Source of the DNA: Candidatus Woesearchaeota archaeon
Lineage (GTDB): Archaea > Nanobdellota > Nanobdellia > Woesearchaeales > JAFGUC01
Length of the DNA: 64,000 bases
Assembly: GCA_016938695.1 (NCBI GenBank)
Contig: JAFGUC010000024.1
Coordinates: 434,001 to 498,000, forward strand
Direction: 5' to 3'
The notes under the pieces are model-generated. The model ran no database searches and was not told the DNA's origin. It saw only the letters and a program-made list of their open reading frames with translations. Below, one piece after another: positions 12,421 through 40,268 of the stretch; the first letter of the stretch is position 1; the number at the start of each line of letters is the position of its first letter. The position numbers were made by a program, and so were the translations under genes.

Positions 12421-13923
12421 TTAAGTATTAGCAAATCTAGAAACCTTTTCAAAATGCAAGCCATAAATTGCTAATTCAATAACCAAAGGTAAAGCTCGGT
12501 GTTTAGTGAACATTGTTTTTAGCATTAATTTCCAATAATATTTTCTTGCTTTAGAAACAATACCAATTCTCCAAAAGCTCCTAAATAATGGTTTTAAATC
12601 CATGAATTTGAACTTAGCTTTAAATTTTGGAACATAATCATCAATTAGAACTTGTATTCTTTCATAATATTCTTTAGGAGAATAAATAGTTGATAATATT
12701 TTTTTATAACCTTCAATTAATTTAGCAGGATCCATTTTAGGAATAAAATTAAGATATGCGGATGTATTTTCACCATGTGAATCTTTTAAAAGTCGTCCTT
12801 CTTCTTTTAATCTCTGCCACAATCTTGTTTTAGGGAGTGCCTGTAAAACACCAACCATTGCAGTAACAACGCCTGTTTTTTGGATAAATTCAATTTGCCT
12901 CTCAAAGATATTATCTTTGTCATTATCAAAACCAACAATGAAACCTGCCATTACTTGTAAACCATGGTTGTGAATTTTTTTAACAGCTAAATCTACACTT
13001 CTAGTTGCATTTTGAGTTTTGCTACATTCGTTAAGACTATCCGCATCAGGTGTTTCAATACCTAAAAAGACTTTACTAAAATTCGCTTCAGTCATAAGAT
13101 TCATTAATTCTTCATCGTCAGCTAAATTGACACTAGCTTCAGTTAACAATTGAAAAGGATATTTGTGTTTTTTTTGCCAATCAATTAGTTCAGTAAGCAT
13201 TTTTTTAACATTCAACTTATTTCCAATAAAATTATCATCGACAACAAAAATTCCTCCTCGCCATCCTGCATTATATAATGCTTGAAACTCAGCAACAAAT
13301 TGAGATGGTGTTTTTGTTCTTGGCGTCCTGCCATTCATAATTATTATATCACAAAATTCGCAATCAAAAGGACATCCACGTGAATATTGAACCGGCATTG
13401 TGGCATATTTTTTCATATTAATTAATTTCCAATCCGGAACAGGAACTTTAGTAATATCTGGTCTATCGTACGAAGAATATATTTTTTTGAGTTCACCTTT
13501 TTTCAAATCCTCTAAAAATAGTGGCAGAGTTATTTCTGCTTCATTAAGAATATAATGGTCAACTCCAGTAAATTTTTCATGTCCTGTTGTAAAAACAGGT
13601 CCCCCAGCAATAACTGTCTTGCCAAGTTTATTGCACAAATTAATAATTTCTTGAGCGCTATCTTTTTGAACAATCATTGCACTAATAAAAACAAAATCTG
13701 CCCAAAGAATGTCTTTTTCAGATAAGTTTTTGATATTCAAATCAATTAATCTTTTATTCCAATTTTTAGGTAACATTGATGAAACAGTCATTAGACCTAA
13801 TGGAGGAAATGCTGCTTTTTTAGAAATAAATTTTAGCACATGTTTAAAACTCCAAAATGTATCTGGATACTTTGGATAGACCATAAGAATATTTTTATCT
13901 TGAAACTCTTTTTTTGTATGCAT
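12421..13923 (-). CDS. B12-binding-domain radical SAM protein (DUF4070-like)
   Basis: PPLGLMTVSSMLP...YSRGCPFDCEFCDIIIMNGRTPRTKTP...LGIETPDADSLNEC...GFIVGFDND. Confidence 0.85.
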   Translation of the reverse strand: MHTKKEFQDKNILMVYPKYPDTFWSFKHVLKFISKKAAFPPLGLMTVSSMLPKNWNKRLIDLNIKNLSEKDILWADFVFISAMIVQKDSAQEIINLCNKLGKTVIAGGPVFTTGHEKFTGVDHYILNEAEITLPLFLEDLKKGELKKIYSSYDRPDITKVPVPDWKLINMKKYATMPVQYSRGCPFDCEFCDIIIMNGRTPRTKTPSQFVAEFQALYNAGWRGGIFVVDDNFIGNKLNVKKMLTELIDWQKKHKYPFQLLTEASVNLADDEELMNLMTEANFSKVFLGIETPDADSLNECSKTQNATRSVDLAVKKIHNHGLQVMAGFIVGFDNDKDNIFERQIEFIQKTGVVTAMVGVLQALPKTRLWQRLKEEGRLLKDSHGENTSAYLNFIPKMDPAKLIEGYKKILSTIYSPKEYYERIQVLIDDYVPKFKAKFKFMDLKPLFRSFWRIGIVSKARKYYWKLMLKTMFTKHRALPLVIELAIYGLHFEKVSRFANT

Positions 13924-23273: not shown

Positions 23274-26200
23274 GTGAGATTGTTTTTTTTGGTTTTAAAA
23301 AGGGGGAAGGTTAGCACAGTACTTGTGTTGTTGGGCTTAATAGTAGTACTTATGTCCTTTTTGCTTGGAAATAATTTTTCACAATTAAATTCTTATGAAA
23401 CTGAATTCGGTAAAATTGAATGGACGACAAGATTTCATTCGGTAAAGTCAATTTCAGGGGTTCAAATTGAAAAGAACCTAATTTCGATAGACTCAAAGAA
23501 TTTTCCTGAACTAAATAGCCCAGCATATATAATATTTTACAATGTTTCAAATGGTTTAAAATTATTTAGAGACGGTAAAATATGCACAGATTGTGAATTT
23601 ATTTCAAATGAAGATGGAAACTTAATTTTTTACGTGACTCATTTTAGCAGTTACACGTTAAATGATACTTATCGTTTGGATATTTGGGATTCCCAAGAGA
23701 ATAAATCAATTGCAATTTCAAGAGATGCTGTATTTTATGCTAATTATACTAATAATTCCGTTTTTTTAAGTAATGCTACATGTACTATACATTTCTCAGA
23801 TGGTTCTTTTGCCATGAATGTTGATTCAACAAAAAAGAATTACAATTATACCAGAAGTTTTTCATCATCTGGAACAAAGAATTGGAATGTAACTTGTGCC
23901 TTATCAGGATATCCAACGCTTACTATCCAAGACAATATAATTGTTAAAGAACTAGTAATTATTAATCATAATTCTGTGAGTTTATATGATGACATACCTG
24001 CATATTACTTAGATGAAATAAAAAAAATGTGGTTTAATATTGCAGGTGAATCTCATTCTCGTGGTTACAGATACGGTTTAAACTTATTAGAGCAATTTAA
24101 TTCAAATTATTCAGTTGATATTAGTCAATATAGTCCCTTAACATATGCTACTGATGAATTAAGAGTAAGTAATGTTGTTTGGAATGGTGGTTCTTGGGAA
24201 GAGTTTACAGGTGAAAGTCGATGGTACACTTGGAACGCATATGACACGATATCATCTGCAAGTGAAAATTATATTCCTAGTCATATAAATTATAGCAACT
24301 CAAACGGATATGTCTTATCTGCAATTGGTTTTGGTTGGTGTTGGGATATGACTTGGATGAATGATGTCGGTGGAACAACTGATTCAGAATATGGCACAAG
24401 ATGGGCAGGAGCTTCAGACGGAGGTCCTGATGGAGATTTGAGATGGGGTTTAGACGATGATGATTACTCATTAACAGGAAACCGTGTGAATATGGATGAT
24501 TATTTACAAGCAACTCAAAAATACATAAATTATGTTGAAAATTATTTCACAAATACAACTGTCTTTTTTACAACAGGTCCAGTAGATAGCGATTATAATG
24601 ATAATTCAGACACTGAGTTAGGATATCAAAGAGAATTAAAACATAATTATATACGAAATTATGTCAATGAAACAGGAGGATTCTTGTTTGATTATGCAGA
24701 TATTCTTGTGTATAACGACTCTGATGTTTTAACGACATGTTCTTGGAATGGTCACACATATCCTGATTACAGTCCAACAAATAATTATGATTATGATGAA
24801 AGTTGGAATTATGAAGCATACAGTGCTGAAGGAGAAACTGATCATATAGGAGAAGTAGGTGCCCTAAGAATTGGAAAAGCAATTTGGGTATTACTTGCAA
24901 GAATTGCAGGATGGGATGGAACTGTTAATGAAAGTTCAATAAATACAACTCCGGTGTTTGATAATTTTGATGGTTCTACAACCGATTTCTCTTTATACAA
25001 TTCAACAGAATTAGAAAATATAACTAATGCAACAATAGAATCAGTTAATTTTGGAAAGATAAAATTTATTGTACCAATAAACTTTTCAAATCTTAATTTA
25101 AATTCTTTAATTCAAATTTCAAATAAATCTATTTATGTCAACACAACTGCAAGTAGCAAATTAAATGTTCAAGCTGAGTTGACATTTTATGAAGTCAATT
25201 ATCTAAACCCCTTAATTTTAGTAGATGGAGATGTTTGTACCGAATGTCAAATCTTGTTGTATTCAGATGGAAACTTAACATTTAATGTGACACATTTTTC
25301 CAATTATACAATTCAAGATGCAACTGAATTAAGTATCTTTGATTCAAAAGAAAGTAGTTATGCAAATATAGATGAATCTGTTAATTTTTATGCAAATTAT
25401 ACAAATAACTCCGTATTTATTTCCGGTGCAACATGTAACATTTCATTTGAAGATGGTAGCTATCTTATGACTGAGGGAGTTGATTTATATAACTACACAA
25501 GAAATTTTTCTACGTCTGGAACAAAAGAATGGAATGTAAGTTGTAACTCAACAGGATTTGCTTGGCTTAATTTAACCGATAATGTTGAGATTGCAAGTGT
25601 AATTGAAATCTCAGGTTGCGCAAATATTAGTTCACCAGGAACTTATATACTCACAGCAAATATACTAAACTCTGCAAAGAGTTATTGTATAAACATCTCT
25701 ACAAGTAATGTAACACTTAATTGTCAAGGGAATACAATTGATGGAAATGATATAGCAGATAATGGAATATATGTACGAAACATACTGGGAGGTACAACCA
25801 CATTAGAAAATATTTCAATTGTGAATTGTGTCGTATCTGATTGGGATACTGATGGTATAGTGTTTAACAGAATTACTTCAGGAGAAATAATTAATACTAA
25901 CATCTCATCAAGTATTGAAGGAATACACTTCATAAGTTCTGGAAACATAAATTTAGAAGAAATAAACATTGACGGTGTATCTTTGGGAATACTAACCGAA
26001 TCAAGTAGTAACTTAAATTTTACAAATATGTCTATTCACAATTCAAATTCATCAATGAGTCTTGAGTATACAGGAAACACAATTTCAACTAATCTAAATC
26101 TAACAAATACCAATAGAAGTATATTTATTTGGGTAACTTGTGGTCACACATTTAATAATGTTACAGTCGGTCAAGGTTTGCCTTTAAAATATTATGAAAA

Positions 26201-29200
26201 TAGCAATGGAATCATAATTGAAAATAACAATTCAATAGGTGCACTACAATTATGTAATGTTGATAATTCCATTATAAGAAATATAAGTATAATAAACAAT
26301 GAAGGAATTTATTCAACATCAAGTGAACATAACAATTTCTCAGATTTATTTATTAGCAATTCTACAGATAGCGGATTAGAATTTGATAGAGATTCAGATT
26401 ATAATCTTGTTGAAGATTCAGAAATTTATTATGCAGCTAATTCAGGAGTAACAATATATTATGGAGATTATAACACAATTGACAATGTTGATTTTACAGG
26501 AAACAGTTATGGTGTAGATATTTTACGAAATTCATATCATAACACCATAAAAAATTCTAATTTTTTTGATAATTTTCTTTCAGTACTAATCGAACAAACT
26601 TCTAGTAACAATACATTTCATGATAACGTCATTAGTTCTACTATGGCAGGAGTATATATTTACGATACTTCATCGACGTATCCAAATTCAATATATAACA
26701 ATTTCATAAATGCAACATATAACGTATATTTTGATGGTGGAACAAACACTCAGTTTTTTAACACAACTAATCAAACAGGAACAAGAATTTATTCATCAGG
26801 TACAAATATTGGTGGAAACTATTGGTCTAATCCAACTAACACTGGATTTTCTGATTTATGTACTGATTCAGATACAGATGGATTTTGTGATTTAGCATAT
26901 GATGTTATCGCTGAAAGTAGTTGTGTTGTTGGTTCAAATTGTTCATCAAACACAGATTATTTGCCATTAAGTGATGAATTTATTGGAACAGTAATTCAAA
27001 TTACGAATTGTACAAATATTACTTCTGAAGGCGAATATGTTTTAGCTAATGATATTTTAAACTCTACACAATACATATGCATAAATGTTAGTGAAGATAA
27101 TGTAAGTATTGACTGTCAAGGCCATGTAATTGATGGTATAAAAACTCAATTTAGTTCAGGAATTTATACGGACCAAAATGATGCAATTGGATTTAGAAAT
27201 ATTTCATTAAAAAATTGTATATTAACTGATTGGCATTATGGAGTTTATTTTGCAGATTCGGTTTTAATAAGAATAGAGAACTCAACATTTACATCTAATT
27301 ATGATGGGTTAGCAATATATGATTCAGGAAATGTAACAATTATAGACATTTTATCAGAGAACAATACTGGAGATGGTTTTTCTATTGTGGGAGTTTCTAA
27401 TGTTACTATGATTAATGATACTATAAGAAATAATTATGGTGGTGACATTGAAGTTCGAGGTTTATACGATTCTAACGTATTCACAAATGTGACAGGTACT
27501 GGGGATTTACCAATAGTATATTACACTGGTGAGATCCATTTACAAAATTGGAATAATAACTTTTCACAAATGATTTTAACATACATAGGGGATTCAACTT
27601 TAGAGAACATAACTTTGAACAGAACAAACTATCTTGGTTCTTCTATGTATATTCAAGTTTCAGAAAATGTTTCATTACGAAATGTGACAATTCAAAAAGT
27701 AGGTTCTGGAGTTTCATGTTATGGTTGTCAATACCTAAATGTAACTAACTCCTTTTTTTCAGTTCGAAATGATGCTTTGCGAGGAGGATCAAATGTATAC
27801 TTAGATAACTCCACAATAAAAGATTCTGAAACAGGATTAATTATTGAGATTTCAAATTCATCGATTAAAAATTGTATTTTTGAAAATAATACTAATGGTA
27901 TAAATATTTGGGGATACAATCCTGGTGAGAATAATTCAATATATAACAATTTATTCAATAATACAAATAACATAATTTTTAGTGGAAACATCTATGATAA
28001 TTTTTGGAACATAACAAATCAAACAGGAGAGAAAATATTCTCTACAGGAACAAATATTGGAGGAAACTTTTGGGCTGAACAAACCGGATTAGGATATTCG
28101 CAATTATGTTTTGATTTAGATAAGGATGGCTTTTGTGATTTAGCATATGATGTGATAAATGATGTTGGATGTACAAAAGGAATTGATTGTAGTAATAATA
28201 CAGACTATCTTCCATATAGTAATTATGATTTGATTAACCCAACAATAATATCACTTATTAATAAATCTTATATTCATTCAGTAATATTCGAGATTGAAAC
28301 TGATGAGTTCACAAATGTTACAATTAACTATGGACCATCTAGTTCATTAGGAATTTTTGAATATGATGCAAATCATTCAAGACAACACAGTATATATGTT
28401 GGGGGACTGTCTGAAAATGTCACATACTATTATAATTTAACACTTTGCGATTTATACTTGAACTGTTATACATATAGTACATATAATTTTACAACTGATA
28501 ATTCTTCTGTACTTAGAGATGGTTTAATAGGATATTGGTCTTTTGATGACGGAAATGGAACATTAAGTGCAACAATTGAAGATTTAAGTGAAAATGGAAA
28601 TAATGGTACAATTACAGATGATGGTGTTGAAGTAACAAATGGTTTAGTTGGGCCTTATGCTTTATCATTTAATGCCACATCAGGTTACATAAATATTCCT
28701 TACGATGCATCAATGGACTCACTTAATATGACTATTTCAACATGGATTACAAATGATGATGCAACATACTCAACATATGCGTATATAAGAAAAGAAGGAG
28801 AATGGCACATTAGAAAAGGTTCAGGAAATTGGGAATTCACAGGCGAAGGTGGATTAGATGGATTTAGTTCAGATTGGGATTTTGTAAATAATCAAAATGA
28901 ATGGCATTTACATACTGTTACAATAGATAGCACAAATCGAGAATTAAAATTCTATGTTGACGGAATTCAATATGGTGTAACACAAACAATATCTACAGAT
29001 AAACCAATAAGTGGAAATGGAATATTTATTGGCCGTTACAATCAAGATTATCGATGGCAAGGCGATTTAGATGATGTACGAATATACAATCGTGTTTTAG
29101 ATGAAATACAAGTTTACGAGTTATATGATGAAGCATATCAAATTTATCCTATTGTAAATAATACTCAAGTAATCACAACAAATGAAAGTGCTAACATAAT

Positions 29201-32200
29201 TTTTGATGTTAATCAAAATTCAAATGCAACAATAAACTATGGATTAACAACAAACTTGGGGAATTACGAATATGATACAACATATTCAACGTATCATAAT
29301 ATTCCAATAATTAGTTTAACAAATAATACTTTGTATTATTATAACATAACTGTTTGTAGATTGAATGGATATTGCAATACAACAGGTCCATACAATTTTA
29401 CAACAGATGCAACAAATACACATTATATTTCTGGATGTACAAATATAACTTCATCAGGAATATATATCCTGACTGCAAATATAATTAATTCTGCAACAAA
29501 CTATTGTATAAATATTTCTGCAAATAATGTTACTTTTGATGGTCAAGGTTACACACTAGATGGAAATAATGCTGCAGATTATGGAATTTATGTTGGACGT
29601 AGTTCACTCATGAATACCAATGTAACAGTTAAAAATATTACTTTGACTAATTGGGATACTGCAGCAATAAACTATTACCAGGCAATGCGAAATTCCATTG
29701 AGCACATAAACATTACAAGTAACCCTGACATCGGAATTAATTTAGATTATTCAGATTACAATAATGTTTCGTATGTTGTTGGGTCAGAAAATATGGGTTC
29801 AGCAATTACTATAAATTCCTATTCCGATTATAATATTATTGATCATATCGACATTAAAAATAATCCTACTGGAGTTTTTATTGCTTATTCAGGTGCAATT
29901 CAGAACCTACTAAAAAATTCAAGAATACTTAACAGCAGTAATTATGATATACGTTTTGTTTCAGGCAGTACTTCAGAATGTAACAATAATATTTCAAACG
30001 TTACTGGAACAGGAAATAAACCAATATTTCACTCAAACGGACCAGTAAATATAGATGGATGGAATAATAACGTTTCCATGATTAGTTTATGTAATTCTGA
30101 TTACTCAAATATATCAAATGTAGTTTTAGATTATGAATATCATGGAGGAAATAAAATAATCTTATATCAAACTGATTATTCAAACTTTTCTAATATAACT
30201 ATAAGAAATGCAGAAAGAGGAATATATGCATCGAGTTGTGCAAATAATTATTTTAGCAACTTAAATTTATCCGATTCAACATTTGGTTTTTACTTATTTT
30301 GGACAAATTCAATTAATAATTTATTTAACAATTCATATTTTTTCAATAACACATATGGATTATATATGGATAATGATATCAACAATATAACGATAATTAA
30401 TAGTCAAATCATAAATAATACAAATGGAATTGTGTTCGGTGGATTACTAGGGCCAAATACTCTTTACAATAATTATTTTGGTAATACTAATAATGTTATT
30501 TTAGGTGGTTCTGCATATACACATTCCTTTAATACCACTAGTCAAGTTGGAGCAAGAATTTATTCTTCAGGTACAAATATTGGAGGAAACTATTGGTCAA
30601 ACCCAACGAGAACAGGTTATTCAGATACATGCACTGATTCAGATACTAATGGATTTTGTGATTCCGCGTATAACATTTCAACTGGAACTTCATGTATTGT
30701 AGGATTAGATTGCGGAAATAACACTGATTATCTTCCATTAAGTAACTTATATTCTGTAGATATTTTAGCTCCAGTAATATCTTCTTTAGTAAATACAACA
30801 ACAAATGAATCTGTTACAATTACTTTCACAACCAACGAAGCAGCAAACTTAACAATAAACTATGGAACAATGTTAGAAAGTTCATTAAGTAATACCTCAT
30901 TTTCAATTTTACACAATGAGTCAATAACAGGGCTTACAAATAATACTATGTACTATTATAACATAACGGTCTGCGATTCATTAGGTAATTGTAATACAAC
31001 TAATACATATAATTTTACAACGAAACAAAATACTGGGTCGCTAATATACAATCTATCTGCATTTTATACAGGCTCAACAATTGTAAATTCATCAATAAAT
31101 TTCTTCGCAAATTATTCAAATAATTCTGTTCTAATTTCTGGAGCAACGTGTAATATAAGTTTTTACGATGGAACAATTTCAATGACTGAAGGAATTAATT
31201 TGTACAACTACACAAGAAATTTTTCAAGTGAAGGAACATATGATTGGAATATAAGTTGTTACAAAACAGGATATTTAACATTACAAGAAAATAATTCAAT
31301 AACAATAAACAATGCAAGTGTACGCTCAGTAATTGAAGTATTCCGTGATACTGGAATGGTTCCATATACTGTTTTATTTAATGCAAAAAATTCAAGTTCA
31401 GATTTTGGAGAAATAATTCGTTACGATTGGAACTTTAATGAATCAAATAATAAATATTCTCAAACAGATAATGGAAGATTAGTAGGTCACATGTTTAATA
31501 GTTCTGGAATATTTAATGTAAGTTTAACAGTAACTGATGAACAAGGAAATAATGATACTTCATATATAACAATCACAGTTGTTCCAGTTCCAGTAACTGC
31601 AGAAACATATTATATTGCATCAGATGGTAATGATAGTAATAATGGTACTTCACCACTTTTTCCTTGGAAAACAACTGCAAAGATAAATGCAATGGCATCA
31701 TCAATGCCTAATGGAAGTCAAATTTTATTTAGGCGAAATGATACTTTCGATTTAGAAAATAATACTTGGTTTTTGGATGAAAATTTAATTAGAGCAGGTC
31801 CAGAGTATATTAAATTAGGTGCCTATGGAACAGGAAATAAACCTTACATTTATTGTGAGAACTGTTCAAGTGATGGAACAATAAATACTAATCAAAGAAC
31901 TGAAGGAAATGGAATTATTATTGAAGATATACATTTCTCAGGATTTTTGTGGTTAATGCCAACGTATTACAGTATGACACAACCAACCGGATTTAGAGAA
32001 CCAGGACTTCAAATAATTGTGCGTAATCTTGATCTTTATCCAGATGGAAATTTAGGAGTCTGGTCCAGTAGTGGAGTTACTATGGAAGACTGTTACGTGG
32101 ATAATACTCAAAGTGGTGTTGGATTTGGTTCATCGAATTGGCCAGGTATTAACTATTTTTATGCAAATCATATTGAAGTTGAAAATGCATATAGTCATTG

Positions 32201-35021
32201 TGTATATTTTGCAGATGCTGGAAAAAATATTCTCTTTGAAAATGGTGATTTACATGATTGTGGAATATATGGAACTTTAAGAGATGGTTTTACAGTTCAC
32301 GGTGTTTTTGATAATGTTATTGTCAGAAATAATACAATCCATAACAACGGCTATGCAATGGGAATTATTGATGGATATATGTCAGATGTACCATCTGAAG
32401 TAATGAGCAATGTTATTGTAGAAGAAAACAAAATATACAATCAAGTATCTTTTGGAATTCAACTATCTTCAATAGTAAATTTTACATTTAGAAATAATTT
32501 AATGTATAACAATCTACAAGGAACAGCAATTAATTCAAATATACTATTATTGACTCCAAGCAATATGGAAGGTTTAATTGATAATGATTCAGTTAATGTT
32601 AACTTCTATAATAACGTATTTTATGGAAATGAATATACTATATTTTATATTGAGGATGACCAAGTTAGTGATGTTAAAATAAAAAATAATATTTTTATGA
32701 ACAACAATCCAAACGGCGAATTTTTCATTAATCTTGAAAATAGTTCTGATATAAATCTTTCAAATAATTTATATTACAATAACACAAATCCTGCTTTTAG
32801 AGTAAGTGGTTCAACATACAATCTTGTAGATTGGTTATCTTCTGGACTTGATTCAAATAGTATTAATGCAGATCCTTTATTTTATAATTTACCAAGTGCG
32901 GATTTCAGAATTTTAAATAGTTCTCCAGCAATTGACAATGGAACACAAGTAGATGCACATTATGATTTTGTAGAAAATTTAAGACCCGTTGGTGCAAATT
33001 TTGATATTGGTGCTTATGAATACGCATTAGATGGGATTGCACCAAGTATCAGTAATTTACTAAATATTTCAACAAATGAATCCGTTACAATTACTTTCAC
33101 AACAAACGAAGCCGCAAATGTAAGTATCAATTCTGGAACAACAATAATATTAGGAACAAAGAATTCCAATTCATCGTTTGCAACAACAATCAATCTTACA
33201 ATTAACGGATTAACAAATAATACATCATATTATTATAATATTACAGTTTGTGATGTAGTCAATAATTGTAATACGATAGGACCATATAGTTTTACAACAC
33301 TCCAAACTCCTGATACTATTAATCCTGTATGGTCTGGAAATACTACTTATTTAGTATCGCCAACATACCAGCAAAGTCAAAACCATCAGTTTAATATAAC
33401 ATGGTCAGATAATCATTTAGATTCAGTTATTTTTGAAACTAATTTTTCAGGAATTCCACAAAATGTTTCTTCAAGTGGAAATTTAGGAAATGAGTATTAT
33501 TATAATATTGCAAATCTTGCTGCAGGAACATATTATTGGAAATCTTACGCAAACGATACTTCGAGTAACGAAAATGAGACAAGTCTTTTTATGTATACAG
33601 TCTCAAAAGCATCAACGGCAATTAATTTATTATTAAACAGTACAGATGGTAATATTGCAATTGAGCAAAACTCTTTACTAAATATGACTGTTAATTCCGC
33701 TATTGCTGGTACATTAAGGTTATATCAAAATGGTACATTACTTAACACTTCAACAAGCAACTTTACAAGAATAATTAATGAAACTGAATTAGGTTATTTT
33801 AATATAACTGCAATGTATGTTGAAAATACAAATTATACAAGTTCAATAGAAACACATTTCTTAACGGTGCATAATCAGTATATTCTTGAATTATCAGATT
33901 CATTAAATAAATCTTATGCAGATATAAACGAGAGTATAACATTCTTTGCGAATTATAGTAATTTTAGTGTTCATATTTCTGCATCAACATGTAACATCAC
34001 ATTTAGTGACGGTAATTGGTCGTTAATGACTGAGAATACAAGTAATTATAATTTCACAAGAAATTTCTCAAACAACGGAACTTATCTATACAATGTAACT
34101 TGTAACAAAACAGGATATCCAACTCTAACTAAAAATAGTTCAGTTCAAATTGGTTGTATAGAATCTTGGTCCTGTGGTTCTTGGTCAACTTGTACTGGAA
34201 CACAGTCTAGAACTTGTACTGATGCAAATAGCTGTGGAACAACATTAAATCAACCAGTTTTAATTCAGAGTTGTACAGTAACAACTTCAAGTAGTGGAGG
34301 GGGAGGAGGAAGTTCAGGTGGTGGATCAGCAGGAGGAGGTTCATCAATACCTGAAAGTGCAAACAGTATTTCAAAAACATGGAGCATGGTTTCACAAGGT
34401 GATGTTCTTGACTGGAATATAACAGGTCATGAGATAGCTAGAGTAGTATCAACACCACTCACAACAGGATTTTTATCTAAGATTGTAATAACTTTAGATA
34501 ATGAATCTGAATTACCTGCGTTTAATTTGTCAGGAATTAATGCCGACTTTGAGCATTCAACAGCTATAGTTAAAGTTCCAAAAGATAGTTATGACTATTT
34601 TGAAATGCAATATGAAGCAGAACCAACAGAAAATATTACCAAAGTATATTCTGATGAATTATATGATTATTATGAAACTGAATTAAGTGGTGAAGGTTTC
34701 TATAAAGTATATGGTAAAAATAATATAATCTACAATAAGGTTGAAGAACAAAATATTACTGGAGAAGTAATTAATGAGTCTATGGTAAATGAAACAATTG
34801 ATGAGATAATAACAGAACCTACTTCAAAGTCAAATCCATTATTTTTAGTAACTGTATTAGTAACATTACTATTCGGCGGAATTGCATCAGTCTTAAAATT
34901 AAATCCCCAAATCTTGAGCAAATTACACAAAATTCCAAAGAAAAATATTGTTCAAAGTGAATACAAATCAGAAAAAATAACAAAGAATAAATCTAAAGTT
35001 AGAAGAACAACCAAAAAATAA
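23274..35021 (+). CDS. Giant modular surface protein/adhesin (NosD-like beta-helices, LamG-like, PKD-like, Fn3-like repeats, TSP1-like motif, C-terminal TM anchor)
   Basis: 3915-aa ORF, N-terminal TM/signal; repeated CxNITSxGxYxL...CQGxxIDG; LIGYWSFDDGNGT...; FNAKNSSSDFGEIIRYDWNFNESN; ESWSCGSWSTCTGTQSRTCTDANSC; Gly/Ser linker; C-terminal TM and basic tail. Confidence 0.85.
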   Translation: MRLFFLVLKRGKVSTVLVLLGLIVVLMSFLLGNNFSQLNSYETEFGKIEWTTRFHSVKSISGVQIEKNLISIDSKNFPELNSPAYIIFYNVSNGLKLFRDGKICTDCEFISNEDGNLIFYVTHFSSYTLNDTYRLDIWDSQENKSIAISRDAVFYANYTNNSVFLSNATCTIHFSDGSFAMNVDSTKKNYNYTRSFSSSGTKNWNVTCALSGYPTLTIQDNIIVKELVIINHNSVSLYDDIPAYYLDEIKKMWFNIAGESHSRGYRYGLNLLEQFNSNYSVDISQYSPLTYATDELRVSNVVWNGGSWEEFTGESRWYTWNAYDTISSASENYIPSHINYSNSNGYVLSAIGFGWCWDMTWMNDVGGTTDSEYGTRWAGASDGGPDGDLRWGLDDDDYSLTGNRVNMDDYLQATQKYINYVENYFTNTTVFFTTGPVDSDYNDNSDTELGYQRELKHNYIRNYVNETGGFLFDYADILVYNDSDVLTTCSWNGHTYPDYSPTNNYDYDESWNYEAYSAEGETDHIGEVGALRIGKAIWVLLARIAGWDGTVNESSINTTPVFDNFDGSTTDFSLYNSTELENITNATIESVNFGKIKFIVPINFSNLNLNSLIQISNKSIYVNTTASSKLNVQAELTFYEVNYLNPLILVDGDVCTECQILLYSDGNLTFNVTHFSNYTIQDATELSIFDSKESSYANIDESVNFYANYTNNSVFISGATCNISFEDGSYLMTEGVDLYNYTRNFSTSGTKEWNVSCNSTGFAWLNLTDNVEIASVIEISGCANISSPGTYILTANILNSAKSYCINISTSNVTLNCQGNTIDGNDIADNGIYVRNILGGTTTLENISIVNCVVSDWDTDGIVFNRITSGEIINTNISSSIEGIHFISSGNINLEEINIDGVSLGILTESSSNLNFTNMSIHNSNSSMSLEYTGNTISTNLNLTNTNRSIFIWVTCGHTFNNVTVGQGLPLKYYENSNGIIIENNNSIGALQLCNVDNSIIRNISIINNEGIYSTSSEHNNFSDLFISNSTDSGLEFDRDSDYNLVEDSEIYYAANSGVTIYYGDYNTIDNVDFTGNSYGVDILRNSYHNTIKNSNFFDNFLSVLIEQTSSNNTFHDNVISSTMAGVYIYDTSSTYPNSIYNNFINATYNVYFDGGTNTQFFNTTNQTGTRIYSSGTNIGGNYWSNPTNTGFSDLCTDSDTDGFCDLAYDVIAESSCVVGSNCSSNTDYLPLSDEFIGTVIQITNCTNITSEGEYVLANDILNSTQYICINVSEDNVSIDCQGHVIDGIKTQFSSGIYTDQNDAIGFRNISLKNCILTDWHYGVYFADSVLIRIENSTFTSNYDGLAIYDSGNVTIIDILSENNTGDGFSIVGVSNVTMINDTIRNNYGGDIEVRGLYDSNVFTNVTGTGDLPIVYYTGEIHLQNWNNNFSQMILTYIGDSTLENITLNRTNYLGSSMYIQVSENVSLRNVTIQKVGSGVSCYGCQYLNVTNSFFSVRNDALRGGSNVYLDNSTIKDSETGLIIEISNSSIKNCIFENNTNGINIWGYNPGENNSIYNNLFNNTNNIIFSGNIYDNFWNITNQTGEKIFSTGTNIGGNFWAEQTGLGYSQLCFDLDKDGFCDLAYDVINDVGCTKGIDCSNNTDYLPYSNYDLINPTIISLINKSYIHSVIFEIETDEFTNVTINYGPSSSLGIFEYDANHSRQHSIYVGGLSENVTYYYNLTLCDLYLNCYTYSTYNFTTDNSSVLRDGLIGYWSFDDGNGTLSATIEDLSENGNNGTITDDGVEVTNGLVGPYALSFNATSGYINIPYDASMDSLNMTISTWITNDDATYSTYAYIRKEGEWHIRKGSGNWEFTGEGGLDGFSSDWDFVNNQNEWHLHTVTIDSTNRELKFYVDGIQYGVTQTISTDKPISGNGIFIGRYNQDYRWQGDLDDVRIYNRVLDEIQVYELYDEAYQIYPIVNNTQVITTNESANIIFDVNQNSNATINYGLTTNLGNYEYDTTYSTYHNIPIISLTNNTLYYYNITVCRLNGYCNTTGPYNFTTDATNTHYISGCTNITSSGIYILTANIINSATNYCINISANNVTFDGQGYTLDGNNAADYGIYVGRSSLMNTNVTVKNITLTNWDTAAINYYQAMRNSIEHINITSNPDIGINLDYSDYNNVSYVVGSENMGSAITINSYSDYNIIDHIDIKNNPTGVFIAYSGAIQNLLKNSRILNSSNYDIRFVSGSTSECNNNISNVTGTGNKPIFHSNGPVNIDGWNNNVSMISLCNSDYSNISNVVLDYEYHGGNKIILYQTDYSNFSNITIRNAERGIYASSCANNYFSNLNLSDSTFGFYLFWTNSINNLFNNSYFFNNTYGLYMDNDINNITIINSQIINNTNGIVFGGLLGPNTLYNNYFGNTNNVILGGSAYTHSFNTTSQVGARIYSSGTNIGGNYWSNPTRTGYSDTCTDSDTNGFCDSAYNISTGTSCIVGLDCGNNTDYLPLSNLYSVDILAPVISSLVNTTTNESVTITFTTNEAANLTINYGTMLESSLSNTSFSILHNESITGLTNNTMYYYNITVCDSLGNCNTTNTYNFTTKQNTGSLIYNLSAFYTGSTIVNSSINFFANYSNNSVLISGATCNISFYDGTISMTEGINLYNYTRNFSSEGTYDWNISCYKTGYLTLQENNSITINNASVRSVIEVFRDTGMVPYTVLFNAKNSSSDFGEIIRYDWNFNESNNKYSQTDNGRLVGHMFNSSGIFNVSLTVTDEQGNNDTSYITITVVPVPVTAETYYIASDGNDSNNGTSPLFPWKTTAKINAMASSMPNGSQILFRRNDTFDLENNTWFLDENLIRAGPEYIKLGAYGTGNKPYIYCENCSSDGTINTNQRTEGNGIIIEDIHFSGFLWLMPTYYSMTQPTGFREPGLQIIVRNLDLYPDGNLGVWSSSGVTMEDCYVDNTQSGVGFGSSNWPGINYFYANHIEVENAYSHCVYFADAGKNILFENGDLHDCGIYGTLRDGFTVHGVFDNVIVRNNTIHNNGYAMGIIDGYMSDVPSEVMSNVIVEENKIYNQVSFGIQLSSIVNFTFRNNLMYNNLQGTAINSNILLLTPSNMEGLIDNDSVNVNFYNNVFYGNEYTIFYIEDDQVSDVKIKNNIFMNNNPNGEFFINLENSSDINLSNNLYYNNTNPAFRVSGSTYNLVDWLSSGLDSNSINADPLFYNLPSADFRILNSSPAIDNGTQVDAHYDFVENLRPVGANFDIGAYEYALDGIAPSISNLLNISTNESVTITFTTNEAANVSINSGTTIILGTKNSNSSFATTINLTINGLTNNTSYYYNITVCDVVNNCNTIGPYSFTTLQTPDTINPVWSGNTTYLVSPTYQQSQNHQFNITWSDNHLDSVIFETNFSGIPQNVSSSGNLGNEYYYNIANLAAGTYYWKSYANDTSSNENETSLFMYTVSKASTAINLLLNSTDGNIAIEQNSLLNMTVNSAIAGTLRLYQNGTLLNTSTSNFTRIINETELGYFNITAMYVENTNYTSSIETHFLTVHNQYILELSDSLNKSYADINESITFFANYSNFSVHISASTCNITFSDGNWSLMTENTSNYNFTRNFSNNGTYLYNVTCNKTGYPTLTKNSSVQIGCIESWSCGSWSTCTGTQSRTCTDANSCGTTLNQPVLIQSCTVTTSSSGGGGGSSGGGSAGGGSSIPESANSISKTWSMVSQGDVLDWNITGHEIARVVSTPLTTGFLSKIVITLDNESELPAFNLSGINADFEHSTAIVKVPKDSYDYFEMQYEAEPTENITKVYSDELYDYYETELSGEGFYKVYGKNNIIYNKVEEQNITGEVINESMVNETIDEIITEPTSKSNPLFLVTVLVTLLFGGIASVLKLNPQILSKLHKIPKKNIVQSEYKSEKITKNKSKVRRTTKK
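26761..30690 (+). repeat. Three copies of a TNQTGxRIYSSGTNIGGNYWSNPTxTGxSDxCTDSDTDGFCDxAYDV-type unit in the giant protein
   Basis: Copies near 26761-26905, 28003-28150 and 30532-30680, each closing a beta-helix block. Confidence 0.8.
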
Positions 35022-35564: not shown

Positions 35565-35628
35565 AAATCAAAAATATCTATTTATATTTATTTTCTTTAG
35601 AACAATAATTTTTATAAATAACTTAGTT

Positions 35629-35730
35629 ACCAATTAAATGTTACTCAAGGAAAGCAAGGTGAAAATCCTTCACTGTCCCGCAACCGTAAAGTCGGAATGC
35701 TTGAATAATTAAATTGGTCGAGGTATGCCG
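35629..35730 (+). ncRNA. Cobalamin riboswitch-like leader (compact)
   Basis: AAGGAAAGCAAGGTGAAAATCCTTCACTGTCCCGCAACCGTAAAGTCGGAATGC matches the conserved core; ACCAATT/AATTGGT closing helix; directly upstream of a corrinoid adenosyltransferase. Confidence 0.82.
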
Positions 35731-35760
35731 CATTATTTCTAAAATAGCGACAAAATAAAA

Positions 35761-36276
35761 ATGTATGGACTTACACATGTATACTATGGGTTTGGTAAAG
35801 GAAAAACTACAACAGCATTAGGTGTAGCAATTAGGGCAGCAGGAGCAGGATTAAACGTTGAATTTGTTCAATTTCTAAAAGATGGAACAAGTAGTGAATT
35901 TAAGTCATTAACTCATGTTCCGAATATAAAATATTATAATCCTAGTTTTATAGGTTTTGTAAACCCTGAATATATAACGCCCAATCAATTGGAACAATCT
36001 TTTTTAGCATTTGATTATGCATCAGAAAAATCAAAGGACCCTTCTGTAGATATATTAATTTGCGACGAAATTTTGTGGGCTTTCGAATTAAACTTATTAA
36101 CTCACTCTAGTATTTTAAATATGATTAAAAGTAAACACAAAAACCTTGAATTGATTTTAACAGGTGCAATGTGTCACATAGATATTATGGAACTAGTAGA
36201 TTATGCTACAGAATTCAAGTGCAATAAACATCCTTATTACAGTAATATACCTGCAAGATTAGGTATAGAATACTAA
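35761..36276 (+). CDS. Cob(I)alamin/corrinoid adenosyltransferase (CobA/CobO/BtuR-like)
   Basis: THVYYGFGKGKTTTALGVAIRAAGAGLNVEFVQFLKDG...SVDILICDEILWAFELNLL...LILTGA. Confidence 0.88.
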   Translation: MYGLTHVYYGFGKGKTTTALGVAIRAAGAGLNVEFVQFLKDGTSSEFKSLTHVPNIKYYNPSFIGFVNPEYITPNQLEQSFLAFDYASEKSKDPSVDILICDEILWAFELNLLTHSSILNMIKSKHKNLELILTGAMCHIDIMELVDYATEFKCNKHPYYSNIPARLGIEY

Positions 36277-36309: not shown

Positions 36310-37152
36310 ATGAACTTTGGAGATTTTGCAAATTCAATAAGAGAACCAGACCAGTATTACGTAGATACAAGTAGATTTATTGAATTTAAAGCATTTTTAT
36401 CAAAAAAAGAATTAGCTTTTATTGATTCAGGATTCCAAGAGATTTCAGAACAAGTTTTCTTTGTTAAAGTTCACGCAGGAGTTTGGAAAGAAAATGAGAA
36501 AACTAAAGACTACCATGCAGAATTTTTAATAAGTTTCAAGAAAGAAAAACAAATTTTTAATTTACAAAAAAACATATTCTCTGATTTTATTTTAGAGTCC
36601 ATAACAGAAAACATTGTTGAAAGCTCTGAAAAGTCGGCAATGATTTTTTTGCTTAAAGAATTAGAATCAGGTAGTCTTATAATAAGAGATGGATCATTTG
36701 ATAATCCTATTTTTAATGATGTAATTAGTATTTCAAAGCAAAAAGGTATTCTTATTTTGGCTCTATCAAAATCAACAACAATTCAAGATAATAACTCAAA
36801 TATTACTAAGGTGTTGTATAATAGTGGTTCAGATACAACTTGGTTTTACAATTATGAAAAAAGAGAAACTTACTCTATATTTTTTGTAAGATTGCACAGA
36901 TTGTCAAAATTTTCGTTCAGATTGGACATCCCAAATTTTGAAGGTTTAGATGTAAGACATCCTATAGAAATTTTAGCATCAAATTGTGTTGATCCTGTTT
37001 TTCTAGGTTACCCTTATGGCTTAATTGATGCTGATTCATTTGCACGTGTTTCAAATGAAGATGCAAATTTTTACAAAGTTATTTTAGAAACACAATACAA
37101 TCTGGATACAAATTATAGTGCTCATTCAATTCTTGATAAAATTAGATTTTAA
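36310..37152 (+). CDS. NurA-domain nuclease-like protein
   Basis: AFIDSGFQEI...SLIIRDGSFDNPIF...KGILILALSKST...LGYPYGLIDADSFARVSNED. Confidence 0.5.
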   Translation: MNFGDFANSIREPDQYYVDTSRFIEFKAFLSKKELAFIDSGFQEISEQVFFVKVHAGVWKENEKTKDYHAEFLISFKKEKQIFNLQKNIFSDFILESITENIVESSEKSAMIFLLKELESGSLIIRDGSFDNPIFNDVISISKQKGILILALSKSTTIQDNNSNITKVLYNSGSDTTWFYNYEKRETYSIFFVRLHRLSKFSFRLDIPNFEGLDVRHPIEILASNCVDPVFLGYPYGLIDADSFARVSNEDANFYKVILETQYNLDTNYSAHSILDKIRF

Positions 37153-37839
37153 TTTAAAATTCCATTCTCTTGTTGAATATTTTTCTAATGCTAAATCTTG
37201 TGCTTCTCTCATTTCTTCTTTAGTTAATTCACCAAAAACCAAATCAAATTTAAGACTGAATTGCTTAATTAAATTTTCTTTTAATTCTTCATAATCAAGA
37301 TTGGTATTAGTAACTCTTTTCTTGACGCCTGCACCCAATAATTCTGCCATTTTGTCAATGTCTGTTTTCAATAGAATTGTTCCATGTTGTAATAATACTC
37401 CATCACGGCGTATTTGTGCATTACCAGATATTTTTTTGTCTTCTGAAATGATATCATTAACAGGAGAATGCTTACAAGAAATACCTAAATCATTTATTGC
37501 ATCAATTATTGGTTGTAAGATTTCTTCATATGTTTTTAATGGTTCATCGTTGTCTAAATTATCTAATTTAATCACAATTGAATATGTTAGTTCGTGGTCA
37601 TGATAAACACATCCGCCACCAGTAATTCTTCTAACAAAATTAATTCCATTTTTTTTAAGTATGTTGATGTCAGTTATATCATGAATATTCTGGAAATATC
37701 CTAAGGATATTGCAGATGGTTTCCACGTATAAAATCTTAATGTATCATCAACATCTCCTCGGATTCTTGCATTTAGTATTGCTTCATCAATTGCCATTTG
37801 CATATAGCAATTATCTTTGATTGTGTCAATTAATCTCAT
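37126..37839 (-). CDS. lplA: Lipoate-protein ligase A family (catalytic domain)
   Basis: LRFYTWKPSAISLGYFQN...NFVRRITGGGCVYHDHELTYSIVI...KISGNAQIRRDGVLLQHGTILL. Confidence 0.88.
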   Translation of the reverse strand: MRLIDTIKDNCYMQMAIDEAILNARIRGDVDDTLRFYTWKPSAISLGYFQNIHDITDINILKKNGINFVRRITGGGCVYHDHELTYSIVIKLDNLDNDEPLKTYEEILQPIIDAINDLGISCKHSPVNDIISEDKKISGNAQIRRDGVLLQHGTILLKTDIDKMAELLGAGVKKRVTNTNLDYEELKENLIKQFSLKFDLVFGELTKEEMREAQDLALEKYSTREWNFKLKSNFIKN

Positions 37840-38674
37840 TTTCTAAATACCTCGATGCATTATATGAACTTCTAACAAGTGGACCAGATTCAACATGTGT
37901 AAATCCAAGTGAATGTGAAAACTTTCGTAATTCTTCAAATTCATCAAGTGAATAATATTTTTGAACAGGATAATGGTTTTCACTTGGTGATAAATATTGA
38001 CCAATTGATAAAAAGTCACAATTTACGTTTTTTAGATCAGTAATTGTTTTTTTGATTTCAGTAATTGTCTCTCCAAGTCCAACAATTATTCCTGACTTAG
38101 TTAACATTTGTGGATTGATTTTTTTAATTTCTTTTAAAATATTAAGTGATTGTAAATAGTTAGCTTTTGGTCGTAACTCGCCAAATAATCGTTCAACAGT
38201 TTCAATATTATGTCCGATAATTGCTGGTTTTGAATCAATTATTTTTTTGAGGGCATTAAAATTTCCATTTAAATCTGAAATTAAAACTTCAGTTTTAATG
38301 TTTTCTTTATTTAATTCATTAACACATTTAACGAATTGACTTGCACCACAATCGTCTAGGTCGTCTCGAGTAACACAAGTAATAACTGCATATTTTATTC
38401 CTAAATTCTTAGCAAATTCTTTTATTTTATTGGGTTCATTTATATCAACATCATCAGGAATACCACTGTTGACATTACAATACTTACAATTTCTTGTACA
38501 CGTATTTCCCAAGATGATGAATGTTGCAGTGTTTTTTGAAAAACACTCGTATCTATTAGGACAATTAGCATCAAAGCAAACGGTATTTATTTTTTGTTTT
38601 AATATTTTCTCACGAGTATTAAGAAAATCTCTTCGATTATATTTTTGTATTTGTATGTAATCGGGAATATTCAT
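37826..38674 (-). CDS. lipA: Lipoyl synthase
   Basis: TVCFDANCPNRYECFSKNTATFIILGNTCTRNCKYCNV...HNIETVERLFGELRP...GLGET. Confidence 0.93.
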   Translation of the reverse strand: MNIPDYIQIQKYNRRDFLNTREKILKQKINTVCFDANCPNRYECFSKNTATFIILGNTCTRNCKYCNVNSGIPDDVDINEPNKIKEFAKNLGIKYAVITCVTRDDLDDCGASQFVKCVNELNKENIKTEVLISDLNGNFNALKKIIDSKPAIIGHNIETVERLFGELRPKANYLQSLNILKEIKKINPQMLTKSGIIVGLGETITEIKKTITDLKNVNCDFLSIGQYLSPSENHYPVQKYYSLDEFEELRKFSHSLGFTHVESGPLVRSSYNASRYLENEIN

Positions 38675-39969
38675 TTTTTTCGTTGTAATTTTCGTAAAAT
38701 AATTTCGCAAGTAATTTTTACAGGGTCATATAATTGTGAGACTGCAGGATTATATGCCGTTTCAATATCCATGAACTCATCAATTGTGATTCCTTTTTTG
38801 ATTGCAAGAGTAATCCAGTTAATTCTTCCAACAACATTAGAATTTCCAATGATTTGTGCTCCAAGAATTTTTAGATTTTTATCAGATAATACTTTTACAC
38901 TAATATCTTCTTCAGAATTCATGCAACTAGAACAAAGTTTTCCAGTATATTTTCCTTCAATAACATCAATTTTATTTTCTACTAATTGTTTTTTAGTTAA
39001 GCCACAAGATGCTATATGTAATCCTCCTATTTTCGTACAAGTAGTATTAACACTTTCATCAATTTTCTTCGTGTTACCTAGAATATTTAACGCAACAATC
39101 TTTCCTTGTTTAATAGCATTTGTTGCGAGAAGTGCGTGGTTCTTAATTTGTGCACAATCGCCACACGCAAAAATATATTTATCGTTTGTTCGTAATTCAT
39201 CATCAACAGTTATTCCATTTTCATATTGAATGTTTGCAATCTCAGCAATTTGCTTGTTTTTTATAGAACCGCACGAAACAATTAGTGAATCGTATGGTAT
39301 TTTTGAGTTTTGCAAAATAATTTCTTTTTTATTAACAGATTCAATTTTTGCATCAGTTATTATCTTCAAACCATTATTTGTTAAAGATTCTTCTACTTTT
39401 TTACTAAAATCATCATCTAAAATAGAACTTAAAATTGTTTTATATCCTTCAACAATCGTAACATCTTTTTTTAGTTTTAATAATGATGTTCCTAATTCAA
39501 TTCCAATTAACCCACCACCAATAATTACAAATTGTTTAGCTTTTTTTGTTTCGTTAATTATTTGTGATGCATCAGTTTTAGTGTAGAACTTGTTAAATTT
39601 TATTTCGTTAAGTCCTTTTATATTTGGAACATACGAATTTGAACCCGAAGCAATAACTAAGAAATCATATTTTAATCTATGACCTTTATTTTCCGACATA
39701 AAATAAACTTCTTTTTTATCTCGGTTAATGCTTTCGACGTCAGAATTTAATAATAATTTTATTTTATTATTCTCAAAAAAAGATAGGTCAAAAGTTGTAA
39801 TCTTTTCAAAAGTAGTCTCTTTAGAAACAACATATGGTAACGAGCATGGTGAATACGGTAGTTCACTATTTTTAGACAAAATCGTTATGTCTATCTTTTT
39901 ATCATTTTTTCTTAATTCACTTGCACAGGTTAAACCTGATGCGCCCGAACCAATTATTATTACCTTCAT
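38671..39969 (-). CDS. FAD-dependent pyridine nucleotide-disulfide oxidoreductase (CoA-disulfide reductase/NADH oxidase-like)
   Basis: KVIIIGSGASGLTCASELRK...YSPCSLPYVV...FVIIGGGLIGIELGTSL...YIFACGDCAQ. Confidence 0.85.
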   Translation of the reverse strand: MKVIIIGSGASGLTCASELRKNDKKIDITILSKNSELPYSPCSLPYVVSKETTFEKITTFDLSFFENNKIKLLLNSDVESINRDKKEVYFMSENKGHRLKYDFLVIASGSNSYVPNIKGLNEIKFNKFYTKTDASQIINETKKAKQFVIIGGGLIGIELGTSLLKLKKDVTIVEGYKTILSSILDDDFSKKVEESLTNNGLKIITDAKIESVNKKEIILQNSKIPYDSLIVSCGSIKNKQIAEIANIQYENGITVDDELRTNDKYIFACGDCAQIKNHALLATNAIKQGKIVALNILGNTKKIDESVNTTCTKIGGLHIASCGLTKKQLVENKIDVIEGKYTGKLCSSCMNSEEDISVKVLSDKNLKILGAQIIGNSNVVGRINWITLAIKKGITIDEFMDIETAYNPAVSQLYDPVKITCEIILRKLQRKK

Positions 39970-40268
39970 TTTAGTCGTACTAACCACATTGTTGGATTTG
40001 TTTTTAATATCTCAGGATCATCTTCAATAGATTTGTTTACTTCAGTTACAATTCCAGAAACCTTTGATTTTAATTCAAGTGTGCCTTTCATTGCTTCCAT
40101 TGTTAGTATTATTTGTCCACTAGAAATTTTATCTCCGACACCAACATTAAACTCAACAAAAATCACATTTTTCAATGTGTTCTTTGATTTTTCGTCATCA
40201 TTAAAAGAAATTTCGATAGATTCTTCATTTCTAATAATCTGACAATCTTCATATTTTTCAATTTTCAT
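39966..40268 (-). CDS. Lipoyl/biotinyl-domain carrier protein, H-protein-like
   Basis: VEFNVGVGDKISSGQIILTMEAMKGTLELKSKVSGIVTEVNKSIEDDPEILKTNPTMWLVRLK. Confidence 0.8.
   Translation of the reverse strand: MKIEKYEDCQIIRNEESIEISFNDDEKSKNTLKNVIFVEFNVGVGDKISSGQIILTMEAMKGTLELKSKVSGIVTEVNKSIEDDPEILKTNPTMWLVRLK

Follow-up and report, generated by a model that had tools for sequence, protein, structure and literature searches.

The 64,000-nt stretch analyzed here (the window) belongs to a 513-kb contig of a 1.5-Mb Candidatus Woesearchaeota genome (estimated completeness 99%, contamination 5.4%) and, as read from its translations, encodes aIF2-gamma, S6e, and further archaeal genes. Positions 35761..36276 (+) encode a 171-aa protein that the initial annotation had called CobA/CobO-like and that is indeed a corrinoid adenosyltransferase of the CobA/BtuR type (CobA_CobO_BtuR, Pfam E 1.2e-43); it has solved relatives (4hut and 1g5r) and is a divergent member, since it scores under the NCBIfam equivalog cut-off. 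A gene for a 280-aa protein (36310..37152, +; weak NurA match, PF09376, E 0.0012, below the cut-off) may be the second gene of the transcript. Upstream of the adenosyltransferase gene, the putative target of regulation, a compact cobalamin riboswitch-like leader had been proposed, with a comparison against the Rfam cobalamin models as a check. Carried out in Infernal, this comparison gave a significant covariance-model score: positions 35632..35710 (+) match AdoCbl-II (RF01689) over its full length (model 1-81/81, E 9.9e-12) at 57 bits, as against a gathering score of 36.5 bits. It is the sole riboswitch match within the 25 kb scanned and begins 129 nt 5' of the CobA/BtuR gene, with the start codon 51 nt past the match end.

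The element contains the conserved cobalamin core that had been noted earlier (GGAAAGCAAGGTGAAAATCCTTCACTGTCCCGCAACCGTAAAGTCGGAATGC, located at 35649-35700), with a P3-P6 four-way junction and its conserved core residues. The 5' strand of P3 (UCAAG, 35645..35649, +) pairs with CUUGA at 35700-35704, and is followed by the P4 hairpin (AAGG...CCUU, 35656..35670, +), by P5 with L5 (UGUCCCGCA, 35674..35682, +), all within the RF01689 match, and by P6 (CCG...CGG, 35684..35695, +). The L5 sequence, UCCCG, is the known L5 consensus (PMC10653944). As judged from the core sequence and the RF01689 match, P6 is minimal, with a loop of 6 nt, and there is no peripheral P7-P11 domain, in line with the initial annotation. 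The archaeal elements share the core consensus and L5 UCCCG with class-I cobalamin riboswitches (RF00174) but differ in lacking P7-P11 and in scoring under the RF00174 cut-off of 31.5 bits (the window copy is not reported by that model, and other archaeal scores are 22-27 bits). Because the folding energy of the whole leader is ordinary (z 0.07), the argument is drawn from homology and covariation rather than from stability, and the former two support assignment of the element as a compact (class-II) cobalamin-type riboswitch aptamer preceding an archaeal corrinoid adenosyltransferase. The predicted feature reaches past the aptamer, taking in a P13 kissing-loop hairpin (GGU-CGAGGUAU-GCC, 35716..35729, +), the L13 GG of which would kiss the CC of L5, and a conserved AUUUCU (35735-35740).

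Covariation was assessed in an alignment of 21 matches and 18 pairs, in which 96% of the cells in paired positions are standard; the alignment was fitted to the model and is therefore biased toward it. Double changes number 58, compared with 17 in shuffles; P3 (4/5 pairs), P4 (4/4 pairs), and P13 all covary, and the ligand-core residues are invariant across the same two DPANN phyla in which the helices covary. Between L5 and L13, pair 42-162 is CG in 15 sequences and GC in 4 (i.e., a compensatory swap), pair 43-161 is CG in 20/20, and a third possible pair is formed in 4 and mismatched in 16 of 20. The alignment thus supports a kissing loop of two pairs, one of them by the CG/GC swap. A mismatch and a bulge are likewise present in env8HyCbl; L5 UCCCG and L13 drive corrinoid riboswitches, and control through the kissing loop and P13 is established for the bacterial ones (PMC10653944).

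The best TATA-like octamers of 17 archaeal leaders cluster 25-34 nt before P3, a concentration reached in 0/2000 shuffles. The one in the window (TTTATAAA, 35611..35618, +) has its center 30 nt before P3, and a second TATA-like site near 35582 is a possible alternative. From the usual archaeal TATA spacing, we infer a transcription start at ∼35638-35644, just 5' of P3, which would have the transcript open with the aptamer and makes P1 an unlikely component of the switch. This bears on the 7-bp ACCAATT/AATTGGT helix that the initial annotation had drawn as closing the structure. The inverted repeat exists (35629..35635 and 35712-35718, +) and is present in the predicted fold; however, its 5' arm lies mostly outside the Rfam match and would stay untranscribed given the predicted start, its 3' arm overlaps P13, and the leaders of relatives have no obvious counterpart, so that the helix is probably non-functional and no part of the RNA element.

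Two kinds of expression platform are found among the archaeal leaders. In genomes G078 and G360, a GGUGA-type Shine-Dalgarno sequence just 5' of the AUG is partly embedded in the 3' strand of P13, an arrangement that amounts to a simple off switch acting on translation. Eleven archaeal leaders, that of the window among them, have a variable linker after P13 and then UUUCU, which is common to 8/8 lineages when related leaders are counted once (AUUUCU to 7/8; 0/5000 shuffles reach either). In the minimum-energy folds of most leaders, L13 pairs with AUUUCU to the exclusion of P13; in the window, L13 GAGGUA (35720-35725) pairs with UAUUUC (35734-35739) within the conserved element (35734..35740, +) in the predicted ligand-free fold. 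Leader by leader, this anti-L13 pairing is of weak significance (p 0.01-0.44), and G228 and G026 have different hairpins that overlap P13. We read AUUUCU as a competitor that would free or trap L13 according to the ligand state, in what looks, in this small sample, like an archaeal-specific expression platform; pairing of AUUUCU with the conserved GGAAA as an anti-aptamer comes to only 5 bp and is the weaker proposal. Three other candidates were discarded: an upstream ORF right after L13 (AUG/UUG), which is found only in some leaders, unconserved and without spacing to GGAG; a Shine-Dalgarno sequence in L13 serving the CobA start of the window copy, which is ∼36 nt away; and an intrinsic terminator, as no U-run follows, for which reason translational control is likelier than termination. 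There is no Shine-Dalgarno sequence near the window CobA start, and only about 12/40 window genes have one.

The initial annotation had called such riboswitches rare in archaea, and both our genome searches and the literature (PMC8281238, PMC2258182) bear this out. RF01689 is present in 9/380 genomes of the phylum, all within the order of the window; R1, a model built from 13 leaders, finds matches in 11/359 genomes of this DPANN order, and the element occurs in 4/34 genomes of a second DPANN phylum. Among all the DPANN carriers, G078 is a one-contig genome of 1.2 Mb. When 85,462 GTDB species were scanned for the pattern of a compact aptamer with a UCGWGG L13, 13 loci were returned: 7 in DPANN archaea (Nanohalarchaeota, Aenigmatarchaeota, Woesearchaeota, Nanoarchaeota, and Nanoarchaeia), 4 in Margulisbacteria, and 2 in Actinomycetota. 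Among 14 control genomes, RF01689 and RF00174 matched in bacteria only, and the archaeal controls had none. Two matches were set aside, a strong RF00174 match in G525 (L068), an apparent contaminant on a Bacteroidota-like contig binned as archaeal, with TonB-receptor-like neighbors, and a 26.5-bit match on G211:C68, which has no core. Archaeal copies L023 and L024 (G360) have a peripheral stem inserted between CCGUUA and the AGYCGG strand, nearer the class-I layout.

Six archaeal loci have a CobA-like gene behind the element (the window, G228, L026, L027, L028, and L036). In the Nanohalarchaeota loci, L028 and L036, the CobA homolog is a tandem fusion of two CobA-like domains, the first of which seems degenerate at its P-loop. 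Other genes behind the element encode an ECF-type S-component-like protein (G026; a similar protein lies slightly further downstream in G332), a ribonucleotide reductase small chain (NrdB) with an ATP cone (G221), a PterinBD-DUF4346 protein (G078; closely similar in G360), and, directly behind it in G211 and G286, large proteins without a Pfam match but with similar N termini (L022:6635-10477 and L019:5766-8066). In bacteria, riboswitches are known to control cobalamin-independent isozymes (PMC10653944). The window's own genome holds a second copy (G000:C7:214637-214716, −; 38.4 bits with RF01689), with archaeal genes for replication (MCM and Hef) and for ribosomal proteins (the L3-L4-L23-L2 cluster) nearby. 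It sits 54 nt 5' of a gene for a 93-aa membrane protein (L014:9305-9583, −, on G000:C7) that has no Pfam or NCBIfam match and has relatives in 98/360 genomes of the phylum, making it a candidate B12-linked membrane protein.

Few riboswitches are as widespread in bacteria as those for cobalamin, and the papers surveyed treat the class as bacterial. Barrick and Breaker found only TPP riboswitches outside bacteria (PMC2258182), and as of 2021 fluoride was the sole experimentally determined archaeal riboswitch (PMC8241225). Archaeal fluoride (crcB) and TPP riboswitches likewise sense an ion or metabolite in archaeal 5' UTRs but with other aptamers and ligands. In the literature surveyed, from which one relevant review is missing, no archaeal cobalamin riboswitch is described, and no paper was found that combines riboswitches with Woesearchaeota or B12 riboswitches with DPANN. 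The aptamer hence belongs to a known family, here in a domain from which that family seems not to have been described. It shares with the AdoCbl-II/AdoCbl-variant class (RF01689, env8HyCbl type) the aptamer core, a compact P6, the L5-L13 kissing loop, and a place before B12-related genes. It differs in being archaeal, AdoCbl-variant RNAs having been reported by Weinberg et al. from marine metagenomes, with crcB as a class shared with archaea (PMC2864571), and in its position, first on the transcript and preceded by a TATA box, together with an AUUUCU competitor and usually no Shine-Dalgarno sequence beside the start codon.

Taken as a whole, the sequence evidence makes it probable that a class-II cobalamin riboswitch at the 5' end of the corrinoid adenosyltransferase mRNA exchanges, according to ligand, L5-L13/P13 for the AUUUCU hairpin and thereby lowers CobA translation. 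Corrinoid binding would stabilize the L5-L13 kissing loop and hence P13; without ligand, L13 or P13 would pair with the downstream AUUUCU segment to form the alternative hairpin; this exchange would alter ribosome access to the start region; and CobA translation would fall when cobalamin is plentiful, the repressing sign being the least certain step. Counting against this reading are the third kissing pair, mismatched in most sequences, the weakness of the anti-L13 pairing, the two leaders with other hairpins, the missing Shine-Dalgarno sequence near the CobA start, and the negative search of this genome for an AdoCbl-dependent ribonucleotide reductase. The same aptamer could act in the opposite sense, with cobalamin forming P13 and releasing the sequence ahead of the AUG from the AUUUCU hairpin, such that unadenosylated cobalamin leads to production of the adenosyltransferase. 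The ligand-free hairpin (35720-35739) is nearer the AUG than P13 is, and, L13 being occupied with or without ligand, a Shine-Dalgarno sequence hidden there cannot explain repression; we also count for activation the junction GAAUGC, which we take to resemble that of env8-type aptamers preferring MeCbl/HyCbl. Activation is nevertheless the unlikely sign: one activating corrinoid riboswitch is known, but nearly all known ones repress (PMC10653944), repression is the norm for ECF-like uptake, which the same platform controls in G026, and the P13/Shine-Dalgarno overlap in G078 and G360 implies repression there.

Less credible still is a leader transferred from bacteria that no longer regulates in the archaeon. 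Four Margulisbacteria/Termititenax leaders (L030, L031, L032, and L035) have nearly the same aptamer and P13, with the same L5 and L13 sequences, and in three of them (L031, L032, and L035) the Shine-Dalgarno sequence falls within L13, at a distance of 6-9 nt from the start codon. In L030, an AGGAGG apart from L13 immediately precedes the start. However, no AUUUCU element is seen in the four, whereas the archaeal copies share it, and the narrow TATA distances and the invariant ligand core among covarying helices in two DPANN phyla also speak against a relic, which we regard as improbable. An assembly or binning artefact that placed bacterial sequence in an archaeal bin, as the estimated contamination and the G525 contig might suggest, is largely refuted by the archaeal gene neighborhoods of both copies and by the single-contig genome of G078.

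Beyond the probable repressing switch of the window, it is possible, and we propose it tentatively, that DPANN archaea have a cobalamin riboswitch lineage of their own, in which L5 and AUUUCU compete for L13 with no hiding of a Shine-Dalgarno sequence, and which perhaps turns the adenosyltransferase on with unadenosylated cobalamin. That several DPANN lineages have the class, together with archaeal promoters and a common downstream element, would extend it to another domain, suggests that reduced DPANN archaea monitor corrinoids, and opens a way to study how riboswitches regulate genes in organisms that make limited use of Shine-Dalgarno sequences. As to genes elsewhere, NrdJ, the AdoCbl-dependent ribonucleotide reductase that would consume AdoCbl, was not found in the window's genome, and a scan of viral-contig proteins for CobA found nothing. 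The window encodes a B12-binding-domain radical SAM protein with DUF4070 (12424-13923, −), a possible cobalamin user; a 3915-aa ORF for a giant repetitive surface-type protein (23274-35021, +); and, adjoining cobA, a cluster of lipoate ligase, lipoyl synthase, dihydrolipoyl-dehydrogenase-like, and GcvH-like genes (37126-40268, −).
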